Of a stretch of 64,000 bases of DNA, positions 6,291 through 60,860 are shown piece after piece. The notes beneath the pieces were generated by a model. The model was not told the origin of the DNA. It saw nothing but the letters and a program-made list of their open reading frames with translations, and made no database searches. The position numbers and the translations under genes are program-made. Numbering within the stretch: the first letter of the stretch is position 1; each line of letters opens with the position of its first letter. This DNA comes from Lujinxingiaceae bacterium. Lineage in GTDB: Bacteria; Myxococcota_A; Bradymonadia; Bradymonadales; Bradymonadaceae. The stretch lies in the NCBI GenBank assembly GCA_013697635.1, contig JACCWM010000062.1, positions 1 through 64,000 on the forward strand, given 5' to 3'.

Positions 6291-6354
6291 AAACCTGGCC
6301 GTAGCTTGTCGCGAGCATCGCACCCGGATTCGCAAGGCCGAACGCAGACGCCGT

Positions 6355-6417
6355 GGGGGTAGACGTCCATCGCGACCAATGTTGGCGAGGATTTCCCGCG
6401 ATTGAAGCCGGGCTTCG
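6355..6417 (+). repeat. REP-like 63-bp element, copy R1
   Basis: It starts with GGGGGTAGAC and ends with GATTTCCCGC, then GATTGAAGCCGGGCTTCG. The end is a near-perfect palindrome able to form a hairpin. It is exactly 63 bases from the first G of the run to the end of the palindrome, like the other copies. It sits between convergent genes, 65 bases after the malate synthase stop. Confidence 0.8.
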
Positions 6418-6545
6418 GACGGCGGACGGCACGCGCCGCGTGGTAAGATGTGAAATCTCTTGTTGCACGTGTGTTATTGGCTGGCGTCGGTGGCGTCGTC
6501 GCCAGCAGACACGTCGTCGGTGGCGCATTGGTTAGGAAACCTGAA

Positions 6546-6584
6546 GGCAGCCAAACCCCAGGGGCAGCAAACCCCAGGGGCAGC
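6546..6584. repeat. Short tandem repeat, about 16-17 bp units
   Basis: GGCAGCCAAACCCCAGG is followed directly by GGCAGCAAACCCCAGG, and the start of a third unit (GGCAGC) merges into the palindromic end of REP-like copy R2. The repeat appears to have grown from the edge of that element, as also seen downstream of the RAYT gene. Confidence 0.6.
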
Positions 6585-6641
6585 AGGGCTTCCATTGCGG
6601 GGAATCCGCACAGGAGTTGGTCGATCGAGCCATTCACCCCC
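6579..6641 (-). repeat. REP-like 63-bp element, copy R2
   Basis: Read on the minus strand it begins GGGGGTGAATGG and ends GATTCCCCGC, then AATGGAAGCCCTGCTGCC. The palindrome is partly degraded, but the length is again exactly 63 bases. It faces R1 with its palindromic end and lies between the same convergent genes. Confidence 0.75.
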
Positions 6642-6647
6642 AAACAC

Positions 6648-20073: not shown

Positions 20074-20087
20074 AATCCGCCCTCACT

Positions 20088-20150
20088 TGAAGCCGGGCTT
20101 CAATCGCGGGATCTGACGGTGAAAACTGGAGCAAACAGTCTTCCACCCCC
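20088..20150 (-). repeat. REP-like 63-bp element, copy R3
   Basis: On the minus strand it runs from GGGGGTGGAAGAC to CAGATCCCGC and GATTGAAGCCCGGCTTCA. With flanking bases the palindromic end is a 17-bp perfect dyad around one central base. Exactly 63 bases. It fills the 92-base gap between convergent genes. Confidence 0.82.
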
Positions 20151-20165
20151 GAACACTCGCGTTTT

Positions 20166-22112: not shown

Positions 22113-22158
22113 ATTTTTCACGCAACTTTTCGACCCGATCTCTCGATAACAATAGAGG
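22113..22158 (+). promoter_or_regulatory. Dyad repeat S1, upstream of fliO
   Basis: It contains GCAACTTTTCG, then CGATCTCTCGATAACAA and TAGAGG, and recurs almost unchanged at 26370-26416 and in degraded form at 22677-22719. TTTTCG and CGATAA form an imperfect dyad with an 11-base spacer, as expected of a regulator-binding site. It ends 39 bases before the fliO start codon. Confidence 0.5.
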
Positions 22159-22197: not shown

Positions 22198-22677
22198 ATG
22201 GCCCGCTCCTGGATTTTCCTGTTCGCCATCGTCGTGCTCGCGCTCTGCGTGCCTGGCCCTGCACTGGCCGAGGAGCTGATAGCTGCCGCGAGCGCCCCAT
22301 CGACCGGCACTGCACGTGCCATGGGTTATGGCACGCTCTTGTTGCGCATGACCTTGATGCTCACCGCCGTTTGCGTCGTCGCCTATGTCTCCCTGCGCTG
22401 GGGCGTCAAACGCCTCATCGGCAGCCATTCGAGCGAGCCAATGGTCGAGGTGCTCTCGCGCACGGTCATCGAGCCTCGCCGCGCGATCCTGATCGTTCGC
22501 GTCGCCAACCGCCACCTGATCGTGGGCACCACCGAGCAGGGAATGTCCGCTCTGGGCGAACTATCTGCAGACGAAGCAGCGCAAGTGGTGGTCGCTAAGG
22601 GTCTGAAAACAAACGCTAAATCGTTCAAGACGGTGTTCAAGGGCAGCAAAGACGATGAAAATAGCCAAAGAAAGTAG
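22198..22677 (+). CDS. fliO: FliO-like type III export accessory membrane protein
   Basis: FliO assists assembly of the FliP/FliR export gate. The 159-residue product has an N-terminal signal-like segment (residues 5-23), a second hydrophobic helix at 43-66, and a small cytoplasmic domain containing VEVLSRTVIEPRRAILIVRVANRHLIVG in parts, which is the FliO core pattern. The lysine-rich tail may be disordered. It is first in the cluster, immediately before fliP, matching flagellar gene order. FliO is generally missing from injectisomes, so its presence matters for classifying this system. Confidence 0.78.
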   Translation: MARSWIFLFAIVVLALCVPGPALAEELIAAASAPSTGTARAMGYGTLLLRMTLMLTAVCVVAYVSLRWGVKRLIGSHSSEPMVEVLSRTVIEPRRAILIVRVANRHLIVGTTEQGMSALGELSADEAAQVVVAKGLKTNAKSFKTVFKGSKDDENSQRK

Positions 22678-22719
22678 GCAACTTTTCGCCGCGATCGCTC
22701 GAAAACAAGAAGGGGGCCG
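22677..22719 (+). promoter_or_regulatory. Dyad repeat S2, upstream of fliP (degraded copy)
   Basis: GGCAACTTTTCG followed by CGCGATCGCTCGAAAACAAG resembles the S1 and S3 repeats. Here TTTTCG and CGAAAA form a perfect 6-bp dyad with an 11-base spacer. It starts at the fliO stop codon and ends about 44 bases before the fliP start, so fliP may have its own control site. Confidence 0.4.
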
Positions 22720-22762
22720 TGTCTGCAGCCCCTGTCGCCGACCGCCTTCTTGGAGACCGACC

Positions 22763-23545
22763 GTGCCCCAGCCCTCCCGCTACTCCTCATCTTTATGTCA
22801 ACAAATGCGCCGACCGGCAGCCGCGCTTTTCTTTGCGCTGATCCTGCTCGCGGCACCCAGCGTCTGGGCCCAGGGTATTGGCACCGGTGGCAATCCGCTG
22901 ACCATGGTCGTCATGCTTGCTGTGCTCGCCATGCTGCCTTTTTTGCTGATCATGGTGACAAGCTTTGTGAAGGTGGCCGTCGTGCTCTCGATCTTGCGCA
23001 CCGCGATCGGTGCCCAGCAAGTCCCGCCCAATCAGGTCATCACCGGGCTGGCAATCATCTTGAGTATCTACATCATGGCCCCGGTTGGCATGGACATTTA
23101 CGCCCACGTCGCCCCCCACATCGACCACGCCCAACAGAGCAAGTCGCAGCCCTCGGTCACCGAGATGCGCACGATCGCCGACGCCGCGCTCGACCCGCTG
23201 CGCGCCTTCCTGCTCAAGCACGCCGATCCTGAAGAACGCCTGCTGCTACACGAGTTGGCCCTCGAGCTGCGAACGGCCGAACAACGTGAGAGCCTCGGCG
23301 CCGAGGACCTGATCATCGTCGTTCCAGCATTTGTGATCACCGAACTCAAAGAGGCCTTCATCATCGGCTTCATCCTCTTTGTGCCCTTCATCATCATCGA
23401 TCTGGTCGTCGCCAACATTCTGCTCAGCCTTGGAATGCACATGCTGAGCCCCACCACGATCAGCCTGCCCTTCAAGCTCTTGCTCTTCGTGCTCGTCGAC
23501 GGCTGGTACCTGGTCGTGAAGGGCCTGGTGCTGGGCTACGTTTGA
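22763..23545 (+). CDS. fliP: FliP/SctR family type III export gate protein
   Basis: This subunit forms the pore of the type III export gate in the inner membrane. The protein has a cleavable-type signal, then membrane helices near residues 47-85 and 92-110, a periplasmic loop, and C-terminal helices. Several positions are more injectisome-like (SctR) than flagellar: SFVKVAVVLSILR, IGAQQVPPN, YIMAPVG and SPTTISLPFKLLLF. The GTG at 22763 follows GGAGACCGACC, while an ATG at 22805 lacks a good site, so I prefer the former. The longer frame from 22655 overlaps fliO. Export of substrates depends on partner proteins outside this window, notably FlhA/SctV and the ATPase. Confidence 0.9.
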   Translation: MPQPSRYSSSLCQQMRRPAAALFFALILLAAPSVWAQGIGTGGNPLTMVVMLAVLAMLPFLLIMVTSFVKVAVVLSILRTAIGAQQVPPNQVITGLAIILSIYIMAPVGMDIYAHVAPHIDHAQQSKSQPSVTEMRTIADAALDPLRAFLLKHADPEERLLLHELALELRTAEQRESLGAEDLIIVVPAFVITELKEAFIIGFILFVPFIIIDLVVANILLSLGMHMLSPTTISLPFKLLLFVLVDGWYLVVKGLVLGYV

Positions 23546-23581
23546 AACGAGATCGAAAACGAAAACGACCACAGGCCCAGC

Positions 23582-23845
23582 ATGGAAGAACACATCTTAC
23601 AGATCGCCCGCGAGGGTCTCTACCTGGTGGTGATCGCCTCCGGCCCGCCCTTGCTGGCGAGCGTGGTGATCGGACTGATCGTCAGCGTGTTCCAGGCGAC
23701 AACCCAGATTCAGGAGCAGACGCTTACCTTTGTGCCAAAACTCGTCGGCGTCTTTTTGACGCTCGCGATCGCCGGTCCGTGGATTGGCTCGCAGTTGGTT
23801 CGTTTTACGCGCCTGGTCTTCGAAGGCTTTCCCAATCTGTTCTAA
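23582..23845 (+). CDS. fliQ: FliQ/SctS family type III export gate protein
   Basis: This 87-residue protein has the two membrane helices expected of FliQ/SctS (residues 12-38 and 52-75). The loop motif FQATTQIQEQTLTFVPKL combines the IQEQTL of injectisome SctS with the FVPKL and AGPW of flagellar FliQ. It follows fliP by 36 bases and precedes fliR, the conserved order of both systems. Confidence 0.9.
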   Translation: MEEHILQIAREGLYLVVIASGPPLLASVVIGLIVSVFQATTQIQEQTLTFVPKLVGVFLTLAIAGPWIGSQLVRFTRLVFEGFPNLF

Positions 23846-23885
23846 GAGCCGTTTTCGATTCCGTTTCACACTTCGAGCGTGCGTC

Positions 23886-24716
23886 ATGCTCCAACTGCTT
23901 CAAAGCGAAGCCATTCAGCAGCCGCTCAACCAGTCGATCCTGCTGGCCGCACTTGTCGCAGCGCGCTTGATGCCGATCGTTCAGCTTGTTCCGTATCTGG
24001 GCGGCAAAGCCGTTCCTCAGTCTGTAAAGATGGCCTTGGCGCTGGCACTGGCAGTGCTCGTTTATCCGACTGTCTGGTTGTCCGGAGCCGCTGAAGCGCT
24101 GCCGACCTCGGCGGGAGCGATCGCAGCGTTGGTCCTAAAAGAGGTCATGGTGGGATTCATGATTGGCTTTGTCGCGGCCCTGGTCTTTGATGCCGTGCGA
24201 ACGGCCGGGCAACTCATCGACAATTCGGCGGGCATCACGCAGGCCACATCGCTTGCGCCGCAGCTCGAAGAGCGGGTGAGCTTGAGCGCTAATTTCTTGT
24301 TTCAGCTGACCGTGGTGATCTTCTTTGTGAGCGGCGGTCACCGAGTATTTCTGGCGGCCCTGGTGCGAAGCTTCGAGCGCATACCGCCGCAGTCTTTCTT
24401 GCATTCGGGCGACAGCCTGACGGCGCTTGCCTATGGCAGCGCTCGATTGGGCGCTGATGCGATCACGCTGGCTGTGCTGCTGTCCTTTCCAGTGATCGCG
24501 GCAGTCTTGTTGGCAAACCTGTTTCTGGCATTGGTCAACAAGAGCGCGCCCCAGATCAACGTCTTTTTTCTGGGGATGCCGATCAAGGCCGCTTTGGGGG
24601 TGATCGTGGTCTTGTTGGGGCTGGACATGCTGCTCGAGCGCTTCATGCTGGCGGCAGCGGACAACTTCGTGGAGCTGGCAAAGCTTGTCGAGGCGATGGG
24701 CTCAGGTGCACCGTGA
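23886..24716 (+). CDS. fliR: FliR/SctT family type III export gate protein
   Basis: The 276-residue membrane protein has six or seven hydrophobic helices. The region KEVMVGFMIGF, near residue 85, followed by AGQLIDNSAGI, contains the IDN sequence common in SctT. DGHR-like SGGHRVFLAALVRSFE, near residue 150, is typical of FliR. Family length is normal. The ATG at 23886 is chosen over an upstream frame that runs back into fliQ. Its stop overlaps the flhB start. Confidence 0.9.
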   Translation: MLQLLQSEAIQQPLNQSILLAALVAARLMPIVQLVPYLGGKAVPQSVKMALALALAVLVYPTVWLSGAAEALPTSAGAIAALVLKEVMVGFMIGFVAALVFDAVRTAGQLIDNSAGITQATSLAPQLEERVSLSANFLFQLTVVIFFVSGGHRVFLAALVRSFERIPPQSFLHSGDSLTALAYGSARLGADAITLAVLLSFPVIAAVLLANLFLALVNKSAPQINVFFLGMPIKAALGVIVVLLGLDMLLERFMLAAADNFVELAKLVEAMGSGAP

Positions 24717-25762
24717 GTGAAAAGACCGAGGAGGCGACATCAAAAAAGAAGCGCAAGTCGCGCGAGGATGGGCAGGTGGCGCGCTCGGCGGAATTCACCG
24801 GCGTCGCTGTGATGATTTCCGCCGTAGCGGTGATGGCGATCATGGGCGTGTCGATCGCACAGCAGCTCGGCGGACTGTGCGCTCAGGCGATCGAGCTTGC
24901 CGCACGCCCAGATCTGGATCCGAGTGTGACCGGACCCTTTTTGATGGATGGACTTCGAGCACTGGCAATCATTTTGGCGCCGTTACTGGGTGTAACCTTT
25001 GTGATTGCGGCGTTCATCAGCTACCTGCAGGTCGGAGCGCTGTTCACGATCAAGGCGTTGATCCCCGATTCCAAGCGCATCGATCCGATCAAGGGCGCAA
25101 AGAACATCTTCTCCAAGGCCAAAGCCGTCGAGCTGGTCAAGAATGTCGCCAAGTTGAGCCTGATGGGGGCGGTCGGCTACGCCGTGTTGCGCGCGAACAT
25201 CGCGCCGGTGTTGATGACGCCGCGCTTGGAGTTGACCACAGCGCTGGCCGTCTTTTTGGCGGCGGCGCTCGAGCTGTCTTTGTATCTGGTGGGCGGACTG
25301 ATCGGCTTTGGTGTCTTCGATCTGCTCTGGCAGCGCTACAAGCACGGCAAAGATTTGCGGATGAGCAAAGACGAGGTCAAGCGCGAGTACAAAGATAGCG
25401 AGGGCGATCCGATGATGAAGGGTCAGCGTCGCCGGATGCACAAAGAGCTGGCCAGCGCCGCCGGTGCGGTTCGTGTCAAGGACGCCGATGCGGTGGTCGT
25501 CAACCCCACCCACGTTGCGGTTGCGCTTCGCTACCGTGAAGCCGAAATGCACGCACCCGTCGTGGTCGCGGCCGGGCGAGGCGACGCCGCTCTCGAGATC
25601 AAACGCCTGGCCAGGCGCTACCAGATCCCGATCGTTCACAATGTCGATCTTGCCCGCGCCCTCGTCGAGGTGGGTGTTGAAGACGAGATTCCTGAAAATT
25701 TCTACGAAGCCGTCGCCGAGGTGTTGCGCTTCGTCTACGCGCTTCGAAAGGAGGAACAATGA
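24713..25762 (+). CDS. flhB: FlhB/SctU family substrate-specificity switch protein
   Basis: FlhB/SctU sits beside the export gate and cleaves itself to switch substrate class. The 349-residue product begins MSEKTEEATSKKKRKSREDG, the classic start. Four membrane helices fill residues 28-215. The cytoplasmic domain has the autocleavage sequence NPTH at residues 264-267, intact, followed by VAVALRYREAEMHAPVVVA. This C-terminal domain looks more flagellar than injectisome-like. The GTG start overlaps the fliR stop (GTGA). Confidence 0.93.
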   Translation: MSEKTEEATSKKKRKSREDGQVARSAEFTGVAVMISAVAVMAIMGVSIAQQLGGLCAQAIELAARPDLDPSVTGPFLMDGLRALAIILAPLLGVTFVIAAFISYLQVGALFTIKALIPDSKRIDPIKGAKNIFSKAKAVELVKNVAKLSLMGAVGYAVLRANIAPVLMTPRLELTTALAVFLAAALELSLYLVGGLIGFGVFDLLWQRYKHGKDLRMSKDEVKREYKDSEGDPMMKGQRRRMHKELASAAGAVRVKDADAVVVNPTHVAVALRYREAEMHAPVVVAAGRGDAALEIKRLARRYQIPIVHNVDLARALVEVGVEDEIPENFYEAVAEVLRFVYALRKEEQ

Positions 25763-26136: not shown

Positions 26137-26160
26137 CGTGGTCTTCGGGACGGCATGCCC

Positions 26161-26223
26161 GGGGGTGATCAGGTGGAATCGTTAGTTTCGGCGCGGATTT
26201 CCGGCAATGCAAGCCCGTCTTCC
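26161..26223 (+). repeat. REP-like 63-bp element, copy R4
   Basis: It begins GGGGGTGATCAGG and ends GATTTCCGGC, then AATGCAAGCCCGTCTTCC. Exactly 63 bases. It forms a tail-to-tail pair with R5, with 19 bases between the palindromic ends, the arrangement called a BIME in other genomes. It lies upstream of the RAYT gene in the 391-base gap after the TPR gene. Confidence 0.82.
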
Positions 26224-26242
26224 ATGGCGGGCGCCTTCATCT

Positions 26243-26305
26243 GGAAGCCCGGCTTACGCGACAGTAACTCCTTGCACAATAAGGCTGACCGGCCATTCAA
26301 CCCCC
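26243..26305 (-). repeat. REP-like 63-bp element, copy R5
   Basis: On the minus strand it runs from GGGGGTTGAATGGCC to the end TAAGCCGGGCTTCC. Exactly 63 bases. It is the inverted partner of R4. Confidence 0.8.
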
Positions 26306-26369
26306 GATTGCTCTGCAACTCATGCTTTCCCAGTCCGATAACAAGCGGGCGGTATATTTCAGTTTCGAC

Positions 26370-26416
26370 ATTTTTTACGCAACGTTTGATAGCGATCTCT
26401 CGATAACAAGTAGAGG
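26370..26416 (+). promoter_or_regulatory. Dyad repeat S3, upstream of the RAYT gene
   Basis: ACGCAACGTTTG, then CGATCTCTCGATAACAAG and TAGAGG, matches S1 upstream of fliO along about 45 bases. It ends 112 bases before the RAYT start, so it may control the transposase gene. Confidence 0.5.
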
Positions 26417-26527
26417 GATATTTGCTCCCTGATCGTTGAGACGACTTCTTCTTGTTCTTGCTTTCATACTGCGCTGCGAGGTGTTTTGGCCTTGCCAGAC
26501 GCGAGTTCCCATATTGAGGGAAATGCC

Positions 26528-27616
26528 ATGACGGATCGTACTTTTATCAAGCGCCACATGGCGCAAATGGCCGAAGTTCAGAGGCTGTTCGAAGAAAACG
26601 CACCTTTGTTCGAAGACATCCTCGTTCCGCCCAAACCCAAGGCTTCGAGCCGCAGCGATGCGACGCCAGCCCCAGGCACTGACGAGGTTGAAGAAACAGT
26701 GCCGTCCGAAGATGAAGACGATGAAGCCTGGATCTTCTTTCACATCACCAGCCGCATTCACTTTCAACGCCGCCTTTTTGAGCGCGATGAGGTCAAGGAC
26801 ATGCTGGCTAAGCACTGCCTGCATTATGCTCGAGTATGCGAGGTTGGACTGCTCCACTACTGCCTTATGGACAATCACTTTCATCTCAAGATTGCCGTGC
26901 GGCGGGGGGCCTTGAAGTGTTTCAATGCCTCGAAGTTTGTGGGCTGCATCAAGCAGCAGTTCACGATCGAGTACAAGCGCTGGTACAATGGCCCTTATCG
27001 ACGTGAGCAGCGCCACCGCCCAGAGTCGCTCGGAAACGGAACGCTGTGGGAAGGCCGTCCGCACATCGAGCGTATCGAAGATGATGCCCAACTCGCAGCC
27101 TGCACCCTCTACATCGAAGCCAATCGAGTACGCGCCTGTGCGGGGACGCAATTGATGGCCCTGCAAGAGCCGCCCATGCTTCTAACCAGCCAGGACGAGG
27201 TCTCACGCCTTCAGCCCTGCTACGAGGAGCTGCTCGAGCGTATTGAGTCCTATCGTTACCAGTCGGCGGGCTGGTACATCAGCGGCTGTGCGGGCCCAGA
27301 ACCGCTCCTAACCGACGGCTATGACGGCAATTGGGCAAGCGAAGAAGAACTTGAGCGTTGGTGGGATGAGCCCGTACGCGAGCTGCCCGAAGGCTGGCGC
27401 AAGGTGTGGTTTAAAGAACGCCTCGGAATTCTCAAACCCACGCTACCCCAGGCCCGTCGCTATATGGAAAATCCGTTTATTGCGCGCCTTGGAACCACAC
27501 CCGAGACACGCGGGCGCACGTTTGCGCGCCTGCTGATGAGCGCATGCTGGCACGGTCGCAAGCGGCCAGTGCGTGATGACGAGGAAGGCAGCGTGCCAGG
27601 CGTCTTGAGCAAGTAA
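26528..27616 (+). CDS. REP-associated tyrosine transposase (RAYT, Y1/HUH family)
   Basis: RAYTs are single-strand DNA nucleases related to IS200 TnpA that act on REP palindromes. The family pattern is clear: FFHITSRIHFQRRLFERDE near residue 74, then LLHYCLMDNHFHLKI with the HUH pair His117 and His119, a basic helix (FVGCIKQQF), GTLWEGRPHIERIEDD, and LYIEANRVRA. Tyr195 in the last segment is one candidate for the catalytic tyrosine, which cannot be fixed by eye. At 362 residues it is longer than usual. The first 70 residues are acidic and probably disordered, and about 160 residues follow the core. The ATG at 26528 follows GAGGG. Palindromic repeats flank it on both sides, supporting a cognate pairing. 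Confidence 0.9.
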   Translation: MTDRTFIKRHMAQMAEVQRLFEENAPLFEDILVPPKPKASSRSDATPAPGTDEVEETVPSEDEDDEAWIFFHITSRIHFQRRLFERDEVKDMLAKHCLHYARVCEVGLLHYCLMDNHFHLKIAVRRGALKCFNASKFVGCIKQQFTIEYKRWYNGPYRREQRHRPESLGNGTLWEGRPHIERIEDDAQLAACTLYIEANRVRACAGTQLMALQEPPMLLTSQDEVSRLQPCYEELLERIESYRYQSAGWYISGCAGPEPLLTDGYDGNWASEEELERWWDEPVRELPEGWRKVWFKERLGILKPTLPQARRYMENPFIARLGTTPETRGRTFARLLMSACWHGRKRPVRDDEEGSVPGVLSK

Positions 27617-27824
27617 GCCCTCCGATCCGCTGTACATACAGGGAACAGAGCTCCATGACCGGCGAACGCACTCTCTGCAAGCGCCAATGCCCCAGTGCGC
27701 CCCAAGCCTCAGGATTAAAGTCCATTTTGAGTTTTTCAATCAGTGCTCACCAGCTTTACGGTGCCAAATATCGTATTGGTCACCCACTCAGAGCCACATC
27801 TGACAGTTTTGCGACGCCAAGTTC
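27617..27824. other. Gap downstream of the RAYT gene with no recognised feature
   Basis: This is the first part of the 363-base region between the RAYT gene and the convergent lipoprotein gene. It is less GC-rich than the surroundings and holds no credible open reading frame on either strand. The rest of the region is occupied by the REP-like copy R6 and tandem repeats. Confidence 0.4.
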
Positions 27825-27887
27825 GGGGCATGAACGGTTGATCGAGCATATGGCATGCGGAAATGCCGCCATGGAAGCCCGTCTGCC
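27825..27887 (+). repeat. REP-like 63-bp element, copy R6
   Basis: It begins GGGGCATGAACGGTTGATCG and ends GAAATGCCGC, then CATGGAAGCCCGTCTGCC. Exactly 63 bases, with the palindrome partly altered. Its right half is the first unit of the 49-bp tandem duplication. It lies 209 bases downstream of the RAYT stop. Confidence 0.75.
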
Positions 27888-27981
27888 TGTGGGATCCTAT
27901 GGCATGCGGAAATGCCGCCATGGAAGCCCGTCTGCCTGTGGGATCCGTCTGCCTGTGGGATCTCGTCTGCCTGTGGGATCT
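27849..27981 (+). repeat. Tandem repeat: two perfect 49-bp units plus extra copies of a 16-bp unit
   Basis: Bases 27849-27897 and 27898-27946 are identical. Each unit contains a hairpin (TGGC to GCCA with inner GGCAT and ATGCC), the GGAAGCCCG core of the REP-like family, and GTCTGCCTGTGGGATC. That last unit is then repeated twice more (27947-27980), giving four copies. The array reaches the stop codon region of the convergent lipoprotein gene. Confidence 0.9.
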
Positions 27982-38600: not shown

Positions 38601-39273
38601 GCAGGCCTTGGCCAAGGCGAGCTCTGACGGTTCAGGTGTTGGCTACAGCGCACGCGAAATTTCGATGCTGCTCGCTGGCATCGAGCCGCTCGAGGACGAC
38701 GAGCCGCTCGAGGACGAGGAGCCGATCGAAGACGCGCCGATCGAAGACGCGCCGATCGAAGGCGCGCCGATCGAAGACGATCTTGCTGCCCAAGAGGCCG
38801 CCGCCGATCTTGCTGCCCAAAAGGCCGCCGCCGATCTGGCTGCCCAAAAGGCCGCCGCCGATCTTGCTGCCCAGAAGGCCGCCGCCGATCAGCAGCGCGT
38901 CGCCACGCCGCCGGCCACGGATTTGAACAGTCAGATAGCCGAGCTTCGCAACCTCATCCGCCGCGATCGCATCTCCGAGGCGCTCACCCTGGCACGCGAT
39001 CTCAGCACCAAAGCACCCGGTGATCGCAACATCGCCTTTTTGCATGGCCAGGCCGCCCTCTATGAGAGCCGCAATAGTGAGGCGATTGAGCACCTCGCGC
39101 GTGCCGAGCGCCTGGGCCTCAAGACCAGCGAGCTCTATCTCGAGCTCGCCCAGGCCTACCAACTGGCTGGCCGACGCGACCAGGCCAAGCGCGCCTATGA
39201 GAGTTTCCTCCAGATTCAGCCCACCGGTCGAAGTGCCGACGAAGTGCGCTCGATCTTGAAAAATCAGTTCTGA
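35623..39273 (+). CDS. Receiver-DUF4388-TPR regulatory protein with a central membrane segment
   Basis: The protein has about 1216 residues. Residues 1-125 are a response-regulator receiver (phosphoacceptor Asp54, KP pair in LTKPVYI). Residues 140-330 are a DUF4388/PATAN domain (EGNFSDITMIDLLQTIE). Residues 330-920 are a long acidic, glutamate- and alanine-rich linker, probably disordered. One membrane helix is at about 935-955 (VLIIGILALLAMLALGG). A variable repeat region follows (about 1020-1090), and TPR repeats end the protein. DUF4388 proteins occur in myxobacterial polarity and gliding systems, but the role here is unknown. Having a receiver and a TPR on opposite sides of a single membrane span is unusual. 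The GTG at 35623 has a perfect GAAGGAG ahead of it. Confidence 0.86.
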   Translation: MANETILVVDADTKSQKVLEVSFKKAGYRVVMTDSVLDAMNRMEQLAPYLIISDTVLPDGDGLEFCADLKLDPRYKAIPFIFLTEDRSLAQKMRGFELGADDYLTKPVYIKEVTTRVELLLQKRAKELLSESDIEEFEGNFSDITMIDLLQTIEEELRSGSIRVTRGTHQAAIYFREGNILDAICGKLQGEDALYRVMLWPEGRFVVRYHEHVRRADHIEKDSSALLLEGIRRLDQWNDLVATLPDVTQIFEADYQRLPAMLTDLPTEVERVVRLFDGHRNLRDVIDDSPVDDLKTLHIIRKLLEDDILLDVTPIEAVSSASLAEERSLNAWLTSGGGPKGTSPGLPFGSHEGELSEPVNDQVDAVRSDPDEVQTIDLKRQQDDPVPPDAQQPSAGQGPGGAHWKFSRAGDEHASPDESEAGDATVADAAQGGEALRELEARETTRREEEARRLAEQNRQIQNTAPQANLQQLPVAIEEPTTLIEPDAPLAPDQESSEQPRIPGAKESGETSRFARDPSNPDITQELFIRTQITTARARSNTPLSSPAQQDRRDVASADELETTTVVGIESAAASMVARPETQEARVVDQPVDVKADVQAEEQDGLDADADATRHDEPTTTAMSSAERRALAIEESDAVKQEAAASVREQLQPETEQPAELSEPTSDPGDETLEAEPTARPARERLSTLPFGLSEESEPTRRARRVTEELSSAPEIQQIDRDERVTLRLGAASRDPKASEQSELTVETPVEAEVAEVAEQPTKQLPQPESVDAFEETAEFEAPEIDVRSEDRIGLREYVPRTVRDGEVVRATYDLSKSGSRKKESTSAEAASIVVAKGEPAPKPDKEPSVEVTLEVEPVVEETQEQSPPQISFGDTPVTVPAISESPSREPAVVEAAPAPKVANSVNEDVFFSKSDHDFSDLDEPANDSWKTPVLIIGILALLAMLALGGSEFLGFLSSSDKKATPAQPVAQSPREAEPVTPPVVVAPGLSSEQALAKASSDGSGVGYSAREISMLLAGIEPLEDDEPLEDEEPIEDAPIEDAPIEGAPIEDDLAAQEAAADLAAQKAAADLAAQKAAADLAAQKAAADQQRVATPPATDLNSQIAELRNLIRRDRISEALTLARDLSTKAPGDRNIAFLHGQAALYESRNSEAIEHLARAERLGLKTSELYLELAQAYQLAGRRDQAKRAYESFLQIQPTGRSADEVRSILKNQF
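38683..38886 (+). repeat. In-frame tandem repeats within the receiver-DUF4388-TPR gene
   Basis: Two 18-bp units encoding EPLEDD/E are followed by 15-bp units encoding PIEDA (with one PIEGA). Four 27-bp units at 38779-38886 then encode DLAAQKAAA (the first with E in place of K). Unit lengths are all multiples of three, so copy number could change without breaking the frame. Confidence 0.95.
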
Positions 39274-50386: not shown

Positions 50387-50489
50387 CGAAGAGCTCCATC
50401 GTCGCAAAGTTCACATCAGAGACCAGCGTCATCCATTGACGCCGAACTCTAACCACTCCCTGCTCACCTGTCGAGCCGCACGACAAATC

Positions 50490-50552
50490 GGGGGTTCAAG
50501 GTCGACTTGCCCAATAAACACGGGCATTTCCCGTGTTGGAAGCCCGGCTTCC
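50490..50552 (+). repeat. REP-like 63-bp element, copy R8
   Basis: It runs from GGGGGTTCAAGG to CATTTCCCGT, then GTTGGAAGCCCGGCTTCC. The 15-base end is the consensus palindrome. Exactly 63 bases. It lies in the 200-base gap downstream of the acyl-CoA synthetase gene. Confidence 0.85.
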
Positions 50553-50586
50553 ACCGGGTTTCGCGCCCCCCGTGGCCCCCCCGCGG

Positions 50587-55175: not shown

Positions 55176-55196
55176 GGCCCCTGCCCCGGAAAAATC

Positions 55197-55259
55197 GGGG
55201 GTGAGTGTGCAGATTAGCCAGTATCGACGGTCATTTGCCGCGATGGAAGCCCGGCTTCC
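55197..55259 (+). repeat. REP-like 63-bp element, copy R9
   Basis: It runs from GGGGGTGAGTGTGC to CATTTGCCGC, then GATGGAAGCCCGGCTTCC. Exactly 63 bases, with the consensus palindrome intact. It fills the 102-base gap between convergent genes. Confidence 0.86.
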
Positions 55260-55277
55260 CATGGGGTTTTGCGATTT

Positions 55278-60754: not shown

Positions 60755-60770
60755 GGGAGGGGCACGAATA

Positions 60771-60860
60771 CGATCACGATCACGGTCACGGTCACGATCA
60801 CGGTCACGGTCACGATCACGATCACGATCACGATCACGGAGGGCGATCACGATCACGATC
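60771..60860. repeat. Hexanucleotide tandem repeat (CGATCA/CGGTCA)
   Basis: About a dozen units of CGATCA or CGGTCA run from 60771 to 60839. After a 6-base interruption, two or three more CGATCA units follow to about 60860. Unit length six keeps any reading frame intact. One plus-strand frame encodes alternating His and Asp/Gly, but no start, ribosome-binding site or credible gene surrounds it. Confidence 0.9.

Follow-up and report, generated by a model that had tools for sequence, protein, structure and literature searches.

The Y1 HUH gene described here from the window (the whole stretch of 64,000 nucleotides analysed, from contig JACCWM010000062.1 of a Lujinxingiaceae bacterium) probably forms, together with the palindromic elements around it, a REPtron-like unit, to which we give a probability of about 0.7. 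This unit would be composed of a chromosomal, selectively maintained RAYT of a divergent subfamily and of the short single-strand substrates on which the protein acts. The element, of 72-75 bp, spreads through intergenic DNA as a single unit, and where it occurs tracks this RAYT subfamily. The system is RAYT-REP-like, although not of the textbook kind, and represents a variant on an unusual branch, in which partial copies of the element with a 3' polarity are new.

The RAYT gene and its product

The gene (Table 1) was assigned by Pfam and NCBIfam matches, alignment and predicted structure, in agreement with the sequence-only reading, which had called it a Y1/HUH-type gene. Its product matches Pfam Y1_Tnp (PF01797) with 25.3 bits, above the gathering score of 23, and contains the HUH motif (N116-H117-F118-H119) that is a core feature of Y1_Tnp. 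Against the NCBIfam model NF047646 (REP_Tyr_transpos) it reaches 45.9 bits, below the cut-off of 80, which is also missed by the other RAYT-like genes of the genome. The HUH core (residues ~68-203, including H117, H119, W174 and Y195) is preceded by an acidic N-terminal extension (residues 1 to ~65, with a DEDDE stretch) and followed by a C-terminal domain with some 150 residues (~205-362), which contains the conserved motifs LTDGxDGxWA and LPxGWRKVW and has no match in Pfam; both extensions, acidic at the N-terminus and long at the C-terminus, had been noted before and are real.

H117, H119, W174, Y195 and N199 are invariant in the alignment of all seven subfamily members, and the tyrosine motif reads Y[IV]E[ANT]N[RH], with R or H where the Y---NP motif has P. 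In the known TnpA_Y1 classes, as described in PMC6006769, the catalytic tyrosine lies within Y---NP or Y---NQ, and since that source places the tyrosine in the Y---NP motif, Y195 is the probable catalytic-type tyrosine; the comparison with known RAYT motifs that had been proposed for locating this residue thus points to a position invariant in the seven members. Loss of the catalytic tyrosine in the four paralogs (LWEGRP against LWDGPY/RRY in relatives) was considered and rejected, because LWEGRP is the W motif and Y195 is invariant. The AlphaFold model, built from an alignment of 4 sequences, is of moderate confidence (mean pLDDT 64.6, 70-85 in the core). Its core was matched by Foldseek with a probability of 1.00 to IS608, ISDra2 and the E. 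coli RAYT 4er8 (entries 2a6o, 2xm3 and 4er8), so the product is predicted to have the IS200/IS605-RAYT fold, with Y195 in the helix that follows the final strand of the core. Sequence searches of the PDB with the protein gave no relatives, and nothing was found in PADLOC and plasmid searches. Comparison of the gene with its paralog on contig C170 gave a dN of 0.18 and a dS of 1.47 (dN/dS ~0.12), which indicates purifying selection and shows that the RAYT is selected for function.

Table 1. Window positions of the RAYT gene, the repeat elements and the upstream motif
Feature	Position	Strand	Remarks
Dispersed element	6353-6424	+	tail-to-tail with 6572-6643; 92% identical to C176:3085, flanks unrelated
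Dispersed element	6572-6643	-	carries a 3' partial tandem copy
Dispersed element	20081-20152	-	between convergent genes
Upstream element A	26159-26230	+	head GGGGGT at 26161; palindrome near 26209-26223; core 26161-26221
Upstream element B	26236-26307	-	core 26305-26245; head facing the gene, at 223 bp from its start codon
31-bp motif GCAACNTTTN6GATCNCTCGAWAACAA	26379-26409	+	upstream of the RAYT gene
RAYT/TnpA_REP-like Y1 HUH gene	26528-27616	+	362 aa
Downstream element C	27823-27894	+	core 27825-27885
3'-anchored partial copies after element C	27895-27981	+	one of 49 bp, then two of 17-18 bp, all ending TGTGGGATC
Dispersed element	50488-50559	+	best folder: three hairpins, z = -3.95 as DNA
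Dispersed element	55195-55266	+	between convergent genes

The repeat family

The elements upstream of the gene had been described as a tail-to-tail pair of 63 bp each. The pair and its 19-base gap stand (one palindrome ends at 26223 and the other begins at 26243), and the window contains only one other close tail-to-tail pair; the length does not, as the two cores measure 61 bp each, from GGGGGT to CTT, and the conserved unit has ~72-75 bp. Downstream, the element and the perfect 49-bp tandem duplication that had been reported were both recovered, positions 27849-27897 being equal to 27898-27946, and the two shorter partial copies extend up to 27980. Aligned copies occupy 72 columns nearly without gaps and share the layout (T/C)CGGGGGT-(~43)-TGGAAGCCCGGCT(T/G)CC-(~5)-GGG, composed of a CGGGGGT head, a terminal palindrome (GGAAGCCCGGCTTCC) 50 bases further on and a short GGG tail. 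The GT[AG]G tetranucleotide is absent from the foot of the hairpin, where the bases preceding the palindrome are of the ATG/TTG type, and Rfam has no family for the element.

A covariance model built from 13 copies finds 53 copies in the 6.2-Mb genome at E <= 0.01 (best 3e-16), which collapse at 1 kb to 44 loci on 25 contigs. The loose pattern CGGGGGT-N34-54-GAAGCCC has 18 matches in the genome (none for the reversed control), 17 of them of exactly 57 bp; in other genomes its frequency is about that of the controls and its lengths vary, with two matches of 57 bp in G011, a genome of a second genus. Mean identity among copies is 59%, most of them being old. Contig-wise sub-families were considered, and copies on the same contig are barely more alike than others (0.612 vs 0.591, P = 0.045), so that no claim is made. 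Base-pair covariation for three hairpins was also tried: among 39 non-redundant copies it is weak, with some support only for columns 51 and 65, which pair at the foot of the terminal palindrome, and most single copies fold no better than shuffles. Therefore, much of the element represents sequence conservation, and a fold beyond the terminal palindrome is unproven.

All eight elements of the window are intergenic, although about 89% of it is coding according to the simple codon-bias gene call made for this test. The element thus has REP-type features: it is palindromic, dispersed, intergenic and adjoins a RAYT gene. The intergenic position, between convergent genes in several cases, together with a palindrome and an occasional T-rich tail that resemble a terminator, could also be expected of host structures (bidirectional terminators, or hairpins that stabilise RNA at the ends of genes) for which the nearness of a RAYT would be secondary. 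This explanation is very improbable, because a terminator has no use for a constant 57-bp spacing between head and palindrome, mobility is shown by near-identical copies whose ends are sharp, and the repeat is confined to one of 144 genomes, where it tracks one RAYT subfamily.

Mobility is evident in three sets of recent copies (C62/C170:46124, C74/C82/C186 and C102:6353/C176), which are 92-94% identical inside the element and 25-33% identical, as expected by chance, outside it. Their ends are sharp, at the GGGGG head and mostly just past the GGG tail. Near-identical interiors with unrelated flanks indicate that the spreading unit is the single element; an inverted pair of the REPIN type was not found as the spreading unit among these recent copies, all of which are single units.

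Association with one RAYT subfamily

The genome encodes four paralogs of the subfamily (the window gene and those on C170, C200 and C138, with 73%, 55% and 46% identity to it), which differ in up to half of their residues. All four have an upstream element with its head towards the start codon, at 223, 220, ~197 and ~200 bp, respectively. Those of C200 and C138 match weakly, with 20.3 and 23.1 bits, as though repeat and protein had diverged in parallel. Nine contigs that harbour RAYT-like genes outside the subfamily (C2, C5, C30, C32, C98, C164, C171, C180 and C191) all lack the element, and on C105 one element is found at ~8 kb from a RAYT-like gene that is partial. Of the loci on the four RAYT contigs, 12 distinct ones are separated from the gene by more than 1.5 kb, where 1.6 would be expected (P = 1.4e-7); this clustering may reflect a regional preference or local spread, two possibilities that look alike in a draft assembly.

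Among 379 genomes of the phylum, the RAYT subfamily was found only in the source genome (G000), in G011 and in G003. The closest RAYTs, 48% identical, are the two genes of G011, and both of them are preceded by tandem repeats in the same orientation, with a GGGG(G)T head and an GAAGCCCCCCTTC palindrome, that is, repeats of their own built on the same plan; in one case the 3' part CTTCTTGGGCG is in tandem, and further copies are present elsewhere in that genome. No recognisable repeat was found adjoining the gene of G003 (37% identical). A search of 143 relatives for the repeat of the source genome gave a convincing score in none, with at most a single borderline match each. Abundance of the repeats in genomes lacking the gene had been named as the result that would speak against a RAYT with its targets, and it was not observed: the link proposed between the gene and its probable repeats is supported by the four paralogs with an upstream element, the nine other RAYT-like contigs without it and the parallel in G011.

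Alternatively, the flanking elements might be terminal repeats, and the gene together with them a TIRYT unit or an IS200-like insertion sequence. RAYT-like genes flanked by GGGGWSAS inverted repeats are described in PMC3733652, and the head GGGGGTGRAC is similar. This alternative is unlikely, although less so than host structures, because the downstream element is absent or otherwise placed or oriented in the paralogs, which therefore lack a constant right end, because paralogs with 46-73% identity are unlike recent IS copies, and because GGGGWSAS inverted repeats at both gene ends, which define TIRYTs, were not found here.

Two observations concern other RAYT-like genes. A second group in the source genome (C2, C5, C30, C32, C98, C164 and C180) has the canonical Y---NP motif and a long C-terminal tail, and shows no link to the element. 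The Spirochaetaceae MAG Im510_bin15 (JAISMB01) and Spirochaetia PG1894_164 (BOBG01) contain dozens of distant RAYT-like genes each, suggesting an expansion.

Partial copies anchored at the 3' end

About 20 of 54 elements are trailed by partial copies of themselves. The 54 downstream segments comprise 48 that have the 3' end without the head, five full copies, one internal fragment and none with the head but without the 3' end, so that 48 of 49 partial copies retain the 3' end but not the 5' end. The end positions of the partial copies have quartiles of 71-74, whereas their starts have quartiles of 31-58, with peaks at 57-60, 41-45 and 31. The clearest array, on C20, contains a full copy followed by copies of 44, 39, 23 and 16 bp, all ending AGCAACAT(G). 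The 3' boundary of the dispersed copies lies near this common 3' end. Such polarity is not described for tandem REP/REPIN clusters in the extracts of PMC3116915, PMC3733652, PMC6006769 and PMC8266576 covered by a limited literature check.

These arrays are compatible with a 3'-end nick used as a primer or with replication slippage. RAYTs cleave single-stranded REP DNA, leaving a 3'-OH and a 5'-phosphotyrosine, as reported in PMC8266576. In a REPtron-like unit, the protein would bind the single-stranded element through its head and palindrome, and Y195 would cut at the 3' boundary, so that the element would retain the 3'-OH and the enzyme would be attached to the 5' flank. Transfer of the freed 3' end to a new site would produce the dispersed full copies; alternatively, this end could re-anneal within the element and be extended, giving tandem partial copies with a common 3' end and differing 5' ends. 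The 3'-anchored, 5'-truncated copies might then be transposase footprints, marking a nick at the 3' boundary whose 3'-OH is re-used as primer or attacking end, a reading that we consider less likely than not.

Hairpin slippage without any transposase can likewise make 3'-anchored duplications. The repeats would still be RAYT substrates, and the arrays would arise when replication pauses after the terminal hairpin, falls back to internal microhomology and recopies the sequence, without involvement of the RAYT. We give this account of the arrays a chance a little short of even. The partial copies start most often at columns 57-60 and 41-45, which are the 3' arms of the two palindromes, in line with what hairpin-driven slippage predicts, and the covariance-model search of the genome found no stand-alone 5'-truncated copies of useful length away from full elements; on the other hand, the strongest predicted folds (50488 and 55195) have no partial copies, and clear microhomology is missing at many junctions.

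If the transposase-footprint reading were true, the arrays would be a readable record of RAYT repeats multiplying by copying and not by cut-and-paste. To our knowledge, cleavage by RAYTs is known in vitro, whereas the step that adds copies during repeat multiplication is still open. The system described here offers a small single-unit family, four paralogous enzymes within one genome and a related counterpart in another genus, and the strict 3' polarity of its arrays predicts where the cut should be expected.

Comparison with known systems

The locus shares with the REPtrons of E. coli, Stenotrophomonas and Pseudomonas a chromosomal Y1 HUH protein under purifying selection and palindromic repeats that adjoin the gene and are also scattered through intergenic DNA. 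It differs in the repeat, a 72-75-bp unit without GTAG/GTGG at the foot of the palindrome and with a GGGGGT head 50 bases from it; in its spread, which involves single units and has produced ~53 copies instead of hundreds; and in the protein, with Y---NR/NH for Y---NP and a ~150-residue C-terminal domain without Pfam match. The sequence-only reading had likened the arrangement to that of enterobacteria and pseudomonads, and this likeness holds for a RAYT with adjoining repeats but not for the textbook form, as the GTAG foot is lacking, REPIN dimers are not the spreading unit and the protein is divergent. The locus extends the known RAYTs by a branch whose tail domain is new and whose repeat lacks the GTAG guide, so that a different rule must govern recognition.

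TIRYTs and TIRtrons, as presented by Di Nocera et al. 2013 (PMC3733652), are similar in having a RAYT-like protein, GGGG-headed repeats near the gene and small dispersed families, although here the repeats are not inverted gene termini and the head does not fit GGGGWSAS exactly. According to Quentin et al. 2018 (PMC6006769), TnpA_Y1 subclass 2.6 and class 3 are also accompanied by atypical secondary structures that lack GT[AG]G, both next to the gene and at other genomic sites; the Y[IV]E[ANT]N[RH] motif, the spacing and the tail found here match none of the subclasses listed there. The REPINs of Pseudomonas fluorescens SBW25, described in PMC3116915, are likewise miniature palindromic mobile DNA that occurs with a RAYT and clusters near RAYT genes, but the inverted doublet is what replicates and next-neighbour distances above 200 bp are random, whereas here it is single units that spread, and they accumulate on RAYT contigs.

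Other sequence features

Immediately upstream of the RAYT locus lies an export-apparatus operon (window 22198-25762) with FliO, FliP and FliQ-, FliR- and FlhB-family genes. The 31-bp motif of Table 1 has only 5-7 occurrences in the whole genome (none for the reversed control). Within the window it is found at 22122-22152 and 22678-22708, upstream of fliO and fliP, in addition to the copy before the RAYT gene, all three on the plus strand. It also precedes the C170 and C138 paralogs, its distance from the RAYT starts being 136-149 bp, and weaker matches, two in number, are on C78 and C140. It is perhaps a shared promoter or operator. Two tandem repeats of other kinds were also observed in the window, one with a 27-bp unit (CGATCTTGCTGCCCAAAAGGCCGCCGC), a multiple of three, at 38751-38912, and a histidine/aspartate-coding one with units of 6-12 bp (GGTCACGATCAC) at 60760-60838.
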